DNA from: Chaetoderma sp. LZ-2023a
Lineage: Eukaryota; Mollusca; Caudofoveata; Chaetodermatida; Chaetodermatidae
DNA length: 64,000 nt
NCBI GenBank assembly: GCA_034401795.1
Contig: CM067372.1
Location: forward strand, 41,334,429-41,398,428
Reading direction: 5' to 3'
Part shown: one piece after another, positions 46,125-49,100 of the stretch
How positions within the stretch are numbered: the first letter of the stretch is position 1
Layout: every line of letters begins with the position of its first letter
Translations under genes and position numbers: made by a program
The notes under the pieces: model-generated
What the model was told of the DNA's origin: nothing
The model's database searches: none
The model's input: only the letters and a program-made list of their open reading frames with translations

Positions 46125-49100
46125 CCAATACCTGTTTGATTGTAACTGCTGGTCTCCAGTCCTTTTCTTCATCGAGTAATGAGAGACATACAGTGCCAGA
46201 CGGATATACATTAGGGTGGAAAAGTGGTGGTTCAAATTTACCTGAAAAAGGATCGCCATTAGAAAATCATTACAAACCAATGAAACGGCACGGGTTGATA
46301 TTAACTTAGATGTATGAATGAGCCGAGAGCCAATAAGAATAGTAACCAGCTGAATTTTGCTAATGCTAATGAATTACATTAGATATGTTAGACACCACTT
46401 TCCATGACAACCAGTGCAATTTTGAAAGCAATATTGCTGTAAGCTGCTGCTGCCCTAAGCAACAACTGTTTTAGCTACCCTGTTCACAACTGTACCTGCT
46501 TCCTGTCATATACCGACACCTGCTTAACATGACTTATTTGCTGGGTGTATAATGATTAGTATATATACTATAGTATTCATAGCAAGACGAACATGCCTGC
46601 AACATTTCATACCCGAGACAATTCAAGCTCTTGTCAACTAGGTGGGAAGGTTCATCCTTATATCTCGGTCATTTCAATCAAGTTTTATAATTTTCAGCCT
46701 ATTCAGTTTACCGTATTTATCCTAATTTAACTGCCCCTCCCAATTATACCGGCCCCATGTTTTTGAGAACATTAAAAAAATAAACCAAATAAATCTGTAT
46801 TAATAAAAAATAGCATGAAAATTGAACACATTTTCACGCCAAAAATTCTTACCGTCTTATGCCTATGCTAAATGTATACCTTATATCCATCGTCGCAGGA
46901 CTGAAACTCTTAATTTATACCGCCTAAATAGTGTGTATACTTTATTGATCATCGTTTTTATTTCATCAAATTGAATCGTAAATTTCACATAAAATGTCGA
47001 CGAGAGAAAATATATAAATCATGTGATATATCAGCTTCCGCTAGAGGACGAGTTTAGGTCATTACTCGAGTAGTACGAAGTCACTAATATCAGTAGCCAG
47101 GTAGATACTTGCGCAATCTAGATATATAGGAAGGTAGCTTAGAGTAGCTACAAGAGTGACGGCATAAACTCTTCCTACAGCTGATTACTAATCGGTAGAA
47201 TCGTCTGCGTTTTACGGACCTAATATACTGGACTCAGGAACTCGGAATGTACTATATATATTACTATGTAATTATTACGTGATGATAACCGAGTATTATA
47301 CATTCAATCCAATCCGCGTAATTGGTACCTGTTAAAATAACTTCTTTTTATTGATAGCATTTTTTCACCTAATTAACCCGCCCCCATCCATTCTGGCCAG
47401 GTGAGCTAATAATAATCTGCCCATAGAATTGTCTGGAATATGGCAAAACCGTAAGAAACAGATACTTAATAATAACTTACATTTTGGCGGAGAAGATGGG
47501 TAGTCATCCTTGAATAGAATTCGTAACTTGAAGAGGCCACCTTCCCAGTTTGTCTACAATAATACATTAACTTACATTTTGGCGGAGAAGATGGGTAGTC
47601 ATCCTTGAATAGCATTCGTAACTTGAAGAGGCCACCTTCCCAGTTTGTCTACAATAATACATTAAAAGAGCACAATATATATGTTTCTAACCCATAATAT
47701 GAGTATATAAAACACCAATTAATTTGACTGGGAGCTGCCAAATTAGTTTATAATATTCAAAAGCATGTTTATTAATCTGTAAATTCACATACACTTCAGA
47801 CACTTTCATTATTAAAATCATTCAGGATCTCTTCTTTTTCTTCTTTCATTCTTTATTCTTCGTCTCCCATCTCCTACAGTTTTCATCCGATCAACTCCAA
47901 ACTTGGTCACCTTCTGCTACTCAGCCTGGAATCTTGTGCTATTCTTTTTATTTTGGATCTGTCCAACAGTTTTCGAGCTACCTACCTTTGCGTGGGCAAA
48001 AAAGTCCCATAAGAAATGTATGTGGATTTTCAATATTGATCTATGAATTTCTACTACACCTAGAGTTTTGATCGGATCACCACTGTACTTGGTCAGGACG
48101 TTACCATTAGAGGCCTGGAGGTGCTTATTAATCTGCATGGCAAGTGCACCAGTGGTAGAGTACTGCTTGGGCGCCAAAATTACCAGTTTTTGTTTTTAGC
48201 AGAAATTAACTCTCCTTCATCAGAGATGGTCAATGGCCATATTAGAAGACACTCTGCGACGTCCTCTCACGCTTCCATCACTCCTGGATCCCAGGCCCTT
48301 GGTTACCAAAATTGCAAGTCAATTTTGACATTTGAACTATGACTACACCTAGAGTTTTGATCAGATCATTACCATACTTGGCCATGATGTTACATTAGGA
48401 GTCCTGAAGGTGTTGCCCCCCCCCCCAAAACCACCGTCCCTCCCCACCTGACATTGCAAATTTCTTGGTTATTAGACACTTAGGCTTTTCCCTTGATTTT
48501 CATGAAAGTTTTATCAAAGGTATATCATGTATGCCGGATCCAGTGGTGCTAGTTTCGGAGTGATCCGACCTCAAGAAGGCCATCGAGTAGGGTTGCAAAA
48601 TACCAGTTTTCGTCTTTTTGGCATAGATTACCTCCCTTTACCCATACAAGATGACTGAGAGTCGTAGATTGACTGAAATGCTAAATTTTGAACCCACGGC
48701 ACCCCACACAACCTTTGCAGATTTCTCATTTATTTGACACTAGGGCGTTTTCCTTGATTTTTCTGAAAACTTTGCCAAAGGTGTATCATGCATTCTAGAT
48801 CCAATGGTGATGGTTTCGGAGTGAACCCGCCATCAAGGTCAAGGTCACCCAGTAGACTCACAAGATACAAGTTTTCATTCTTAACATAGATTACATCACT
48901 TTACCCATACAAGATGATTGAAAGTCTTAGATTGAATAAAATGTCAAATTTTGAATCCAAGGCACCCAACAAAAACTGTGCAGATATCTCGGTTATTTGA
49001 CACTTCAGGGCCTTTTCCTTGACTTTCATGAAAACTTTACGAGAGGTATATCATGCATGCCAGATCCAATGGTGATGGTTTGGAAGCGATCCGACCTCAA

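Follow-up and report, generated by a model that had tools for sequence, protein, structure and literature searches.

Tandem duplication of exon 3 in a molluscan UBC9 gene, with copies differing at one base that encode Met62 or Ile62

The third exon of an intact UBC9 (SUMO E2) gene is present twice, head to tail, in the 64,000-nt stretch of DNA analyzed here (the window), where the gene lies on the minus strand and has 162 codons with either copy of the exon. The two copies differ at a single base, with methionine at residue 62 in the first and isoleucine in the second. The reading that we favor, with a probability of about 0.63, is a recent, microhomology-mediated tandem duplication, perhaps allelic, in which the Ile copy is a relaxed and near-silent passenger. 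The exons (tblastn and splice sites), the repeat units (repeat search and TRF), and the spacer between the two exon copies are as follows:

54242 to 54307, minus strand: UBC9 exon 1, coding part, 66 nt, residues 1–22
51629 to 51712, minus strand: UBC9 exon 2, 84 nt, residues 23–50
47576 to 47648, minus strand: UBC9 exon 3, Met62 copy, 73 nt, with the original acceptor and the entire upstream intron
47481 to 47553, minus strand: UBC9 exon 3, Ile62 copy, 73 nt, with the original downstream intron
46132 to 46241, minus strand: UBC9 exon 4, 110 nt, with the HPN motif and Cys93
44851 to 44930, minus strand: UBC9 exon 5, 80 nt
28791 to 28866, minus strand: UBC9 exon 6, coding part up to the stop codon, 76 nt
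47568 to 47662, minus strand: 95-bp unit, first in transcript order (Met)
47473 to 47567, minus strand: 95-bp unit, second in transcript order (Ile)
47554 to 47575, minus strand: spacer, 22 nt, GT...AG, formed by the donor of the Met copy and the acceptor of the Ile copy

Judged by its translation, the gene is a member of the UBC9/UBE2I family: it has a full-length E2 domain (PF00179, 165.8 bits), contains FHPNVYPSGTVCLS, carries in exon 4 the HPN motif and Cys93, which we take to be the catalytic features of UBC9, and has UBC9 chains as its top PDB matches (1z5s_A spans residues 1–156). All introns other than the 22-nt spacer are GT-AG. The highest identities among the database matches listed are 92% over 99% for P0003, 93% over 85% for Pomacea, and then 87% for Gigantopelta, and the top E-value among them belongs to a doubled protein of Lutzomyia. 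This protein (P0001, Lutzomyia longipalpis, 267 aa) and P0002 (Amoeboaphelidium, 274 aa) are UBC9-like with most of the domain repeated in the chain; the doubling in P0001 may be a gene-model error.

The remainder of the window is rich in repeats and mobile elements. A 28-bp minisatellite of about 102 copies (32819–35636) lies inside the 16-kb last UBC9 intron, which also holds further retroelement-like open reading frames (ORFs) at 36461–43788 (one of three tested has a sub-threshold RVT_1 match, 28.4 vs 29.6 bits, and the other two have none). A perfect (TA)34 array at 46056–46123 starts at base 9 of the intron that follows exon 4, close to the exon 4 donor; its length could vary and could affect splicing. 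Outside the gene are the remains of a non-LTR retrotransposon on the minus strand at 11738–15146, with endonuclease, reverse transcriptase, and RNase H; among the best 120 of 1833 matches listed for its reverse transcriptase, the top match, at 92% identity over 84%, is a JGI record, and Mytilus, Littorina, and Batillaria supply the best matches with names. Together with the UBC9 relatives, these named matches suggest that the genome is that of a mollusc. Two overlapping transposase-like ORFs at 20031–20670, one with a DDE_3 match and the other without, presumably represent a Tc1/mariner-type transposase. The tandem repeats at 3984–4722 and 10811–11675 have units of about 150–325 bp with 75–79% matches and look alike by eye, and a plus-strand ORF with C2H2 zinc fingers at 4899–5258 perhaps belongs to a neighboring host gene.

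The two 95-bp units at 47473–47567 and 47568–47662 are 99% identical and abut directly. TRF reports a period of 95 over 47473–47665 with a score of 379, so that the repeat extends 3 nt (TAA) beyond the two copies. Each unit consists of the complete 73-nt exon 3 with 14 nt of intron on the acceptor side and 8 nt on the donor side, and the sole difference between the units is an A at plus-strand position 47518 and a C at 47613, which in the transcript gives ATT (Ile62) vs ATG (Met62), with the Met62 exon upstream and the Ile62 exon downstream. The repeat search, TRF, and the splice sites thus confirm what the initial annotation had proposed, a tandem duplication of UBE2I exon 3 in a 95-bp unit with one base exchanging Met62 for Ile62, except that the repeat starts at 47473 rather than 47474. 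In a scan of the window for adjacent repeats (units of 20–500 nt, identity of 95% or more, simple-sequence units removed), the 95-bp repeat, one unit-28 repeat, and one unit-20 repeat were the only hits outside the 28-bp minisatellite, and with so few comparable repeats in 64 kb the 95-bp repeat is not a chance occurrence. A search of the window for further copies of the 22-nt spacer, allowing up to 3 mismatches, found none, and an exact 32-nt exon pattern had 0 matches in genome_contigs and viral_contigs, as an animal gene would predict.

The sites follow one another in the transcript as acceptor 1, Met exon, donor 1, 22 nt, acceptor 2, Ile exon, and donor 2. The two donors have 8 identical intron nucleotides and the two acceptors have 17 intron nucleotides in common, apart from which acceptor 2 has no upstream intron of its own. 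Within 100 nt before acceptor 2, the only yTnAy motif is TTAAT, whose A, at −14, is base 9 of the spacer. Passages of two papers give about 50 nt as a proposed steric threshold between donor and branch point (PMC7969005; PMC5740500), and part of another discusses minimum intron length (PMC5435141). Because the sole branch motif is at the ninth spacer base against this threshold, excision of the spacer as an intron, joining both exons, appears sterically implausible, which bears out the earlier view that the 22-nt gap is too short for an intron. Translation likewise confirms that inclusion of both exons shifts the frame: the joined Met and Ile exons reach a stop after 90 codons. The stronger statement that a transcript can use only one exon holds as far as joining both is concerned, but overlooks a third product. 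Inclusion of the Ile exon alone requires acceptor 2, and acceptor 1 can pair with donor 1 or with donor 2; in the latter case, the result is a frame-shifted 168-nt exon, in which 144 codons are followed by a stop (codon 145) lying 73 nt upstream of the last junction, and such a transcript would probably be destroyed by nonsense-mediated decay (NMD).

Acceptor 1 is the predicted winner of this competition, since its AG-free stretch is longer (back to an AG ending at −38, vs −17 for acceptor 2) and its pyrimidine fraction before the AG is higher (0.67 vs 0.50; 0.61–0.78 for exons 2, 4, 5, and 6), acceptor 2 having the lowest fraction among the six acceptors scored. The Met form would then be the default and the Ile form minor, in a ranking that is not firm and was made by motif with no trained model. 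The motif scan itself discriminates poorly: no yTnAy lies within 60 nt of the exon 6 acceptor, and of the five such motifs in the 100 nt before acceptor 1, all but one are cut off by an intervening AG, the exception being the TTAAT that also serves acceptor 2. The mutually exclusive use predicted in the initial annotation is therefore upheld in so far as the anatomy forbids joining, but the predicted outcome is mostly the Met form plus some 168-nt exon rather than a balanced pair, and complementarity in the flanking introns gives no signal of a competing RNA structure above shuffles.

Met is nearly invariant at residue 62. Among 184 distinct proteins (the best 120 of 2748 and the best 120 of 663 matches, pooled; those with names are mainly vertebrate), 181 have Met, and there is one each with Ile (P0079, from the jellyfish Rhopilema), Val (P0121), and Leu (P0002, a doubled and distant protein). 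The single Ile62 stands in a different context, and an exon-3-like peptide occurs twice in 2 of the 184, both times inside a larger domain repeat; protein records cannot reveal an unannotated exon, so these counts describe annotated proteins. In a predicted model of P0003, the nearest full-length database relative (18 sequences, mean pLDDT 82.9), residue 62 lies inside strand 56–63, in agreement with its earlier placement in a strand. Ile62 looks tolerated because Rhopilema has it, because the E2 profile (Pfam) score barely moves (165.7 bits for the Ile form vs 165.8 for the Met form), and because human UBE2D2 has Ile at the position aligned to UBC9 residue 62; the change is rare, and probably harmless for the enzyme.

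Under the favored reading, microhomology-mediated template switching or end joining would have copied a block made up of exon 3, 14–17 nt of the upstream intron, and 8 nt of the downstream intron, the 3-nt extension TAA being interpreted as a remnant of 3-nt microhomology, and the duplication may be allelic in the animal that was sequenced. Donor 1 and acceptor 2 would be too close for joint use, leaving the spliceosome to choose one exon or to run from acceptor 1 to the last donor, with the frame-shifted 168-nt exon and probable NMD as the consequence. The Met copy retains the original acceptor and should stay the default, and the Ile copy would be a relaxed passenger that, if included, probably still yields a working enzyme. 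The divergence of 1 in 95 (95% Poisson interval 0.00027–0.059 per site) comprises too few differences to date the event: if the neutral rate is taken to be 2e-9 to 5e-9 per site and year, the point estimates span 1.1–2.6 million years and the overall 95% range is 0.03–14.7 million years, which in practice means "recent." It speaks against this reading that nearly the only repeat of its kind in 64 kb sits exactly over an exon, which ascertainment may or may not explain; an exact exon-wide duplication is a small target, and as the finding was picked for exactly that coverage, we give the coincidence little weight.

The origins named in the initial annotation (a recent event, a polymorphism, or an artefact) were the right ones to weigh. 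An assembly artefact, in which two alleles were set head to tail unmerged (a Met and an Ile haplotype, or one clean read and one with an error), is rather unlikely but deserves serious consideration, since a difference of 1% is one that two haplotypes of an outbred invertebrate could plausibly show. According to parts of PMC9516828, false duplications at heterozygous sites are widespread in the vertebrate assemblies studied there; these false (heterotype) duplications resemble the UBC9 repeat in having near-identical copies that differ at the level of heterozygosity. The same passages describe false pairs as most often gap-separated, although wrong gap filling sometimes joins them and leaves no assembly gap, and also mention true allele-specific tandem duplication (PMC9516828). 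The UBC9 repeat departs from the typical case in being gapless and very short: the window has zero N in its 64,000 bases and the copies abut, which argues against haplotype merging because false pairs are mostly gap-separated; the unit is just 95 bp; and the assembly carries through the 102-copy 28-bp array and (TA)34. The nature of the difference points the same way, as an allelic difference under constraint should seldom be missense. Missense changes make up 161 of the 285 possible single changes in the unit, and the likelihood ratio of a relaxed copy vs a constrained SNP is 37.6, 8.0, 4.3, or 2.4 at an assumed omega of 0.01, 0.05, 0.1, or 0.2, respectively, so a missense change as the sole difference speaks more for relaxation of the second copy than for a SNP between alleles of a gene under constraint. 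This argument against haplotype merging is modest, resting as it does on one base.

The other alternatives accept the duplication and differ in what it would do. Its main effect could be the 168-nt poison exon, making it an allele that lowers UBC9 output. The 8 identical intron nucleotides let the last donor compete for acceptor 1, and translation of this product would end at codon 145, 73 nt upstream of the final junction, but selection should act against a strong loss of UBC9 except in heterozygotes; we consider this outcome, a sub-case that overlaps with the passenger reading, improbable. A young working pair of mutually exclusive exons, producing Met62 and Ile62 UBC9 proteins perhaps under tissue or stress regulation, is less probable still. 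In its favor are the equal length, phase, and GT/AG ends of the exons, the frame shift and steric exclusion if both were used, the tolerance of Ile suggested by Rhopilema, UBE2D2, and the Pfam scores, and a 21-nt arm in the intron that follows exon 3 (46631–46651), which faces both copies with 76% complementarity to the beginning of each. However, the second acceptor appears crippled, the Met/Ile change is conservative, human events of this kind are mostly ancient according to PMC9741552, and the complementarity of the flanking introns to the unit is at shuffle level. Ungapped scores as high as those observed were reached by 57 of 200 shuffles for the intron after exon 3 and 32 of 100 for the intron before it, and a docking-selector structure is accordingly rejected despite the 46631–46651 arm. 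A regulated Met/Ile switch is thus unlikely, and there is only a slim chance that this lineage has added a second exon 3, caught at birth, to a gene that scarcely varies among animals, and that its transcripts choose between the Met62 and Ile62 forms by pure steric exclusion over the 22-nt spacer, with no regulatory sequence.

By its sequence, the UBC9 pair has the makings of mutually exclusive exons, which are adjacent, homologous, equal in length and phase, and bounded by GT/AG, and whose joint inclusion is predicted to be non-productive. Passages on OGDH exons 4a/4b (PMC7969005) and on a human set (PMC5740500) describe the same arrangement, with a donor and branch point that are too close and a frame shift if both exons are included. 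The UBC9 pair resembles these sterically excluded tandem exons in anatomy, a likeness that carries no claim to the functional class. The human tandem exon events covered in part of PMC9741552 are mostly ancient, whereas the UBC9 copies are one base apart, and a survey quoted in PMC7969005 considered intervening introns of 60–500 nt, vs the 22-nt spacer here. Another case is the tandemly duplicated exon 10 of the alternative oxidase gene (AOX), also a molluscan gene for a conserved enzyme, which is found in two oyster species; there, by the sections of PMC5589949 that treat it, transcripts use the second copy or both via an alternative 3′ splice site, so that a molluscan tandem exon duplication can yield used exons. 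In UBC9, by contrast, both copies together break the frame, and the case is known from genomic DNA. A limited search of parts of the literature on UBC9 exon duplication and UBE2I splicing found no duplicated or alternative third UBC9 exon. What it did contain, in an excerpt of PMC10398401, was an alternative 5′ splice site of UBE2I that depends on TRA2B, at an exon the excerpt does not name; the portion of PMC13199581 covered had no UBE2I splicing content. Extra residues are inserted between positions 47 and 53, where exons 2 and 3 meet, in 4 of the 184 listed relatives (P0060, which is human, P0071, P0074, and P0174); these inserts are not exon 3 copies and reflect annotated alternative splicing beside exon 3 in vertebrates.

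We regard the duplication as an ordinary type of mutation in an unusual gene. If it is an artefact, it illustrates how haplotypes that differ at one base can take on the look of alternative exons. If it is real, it would be a tandem exon duplication near its origin, in a strongly constrained gene, and nature would have provided a test of whether the choice between exons is enforced by a short spacer on its own.
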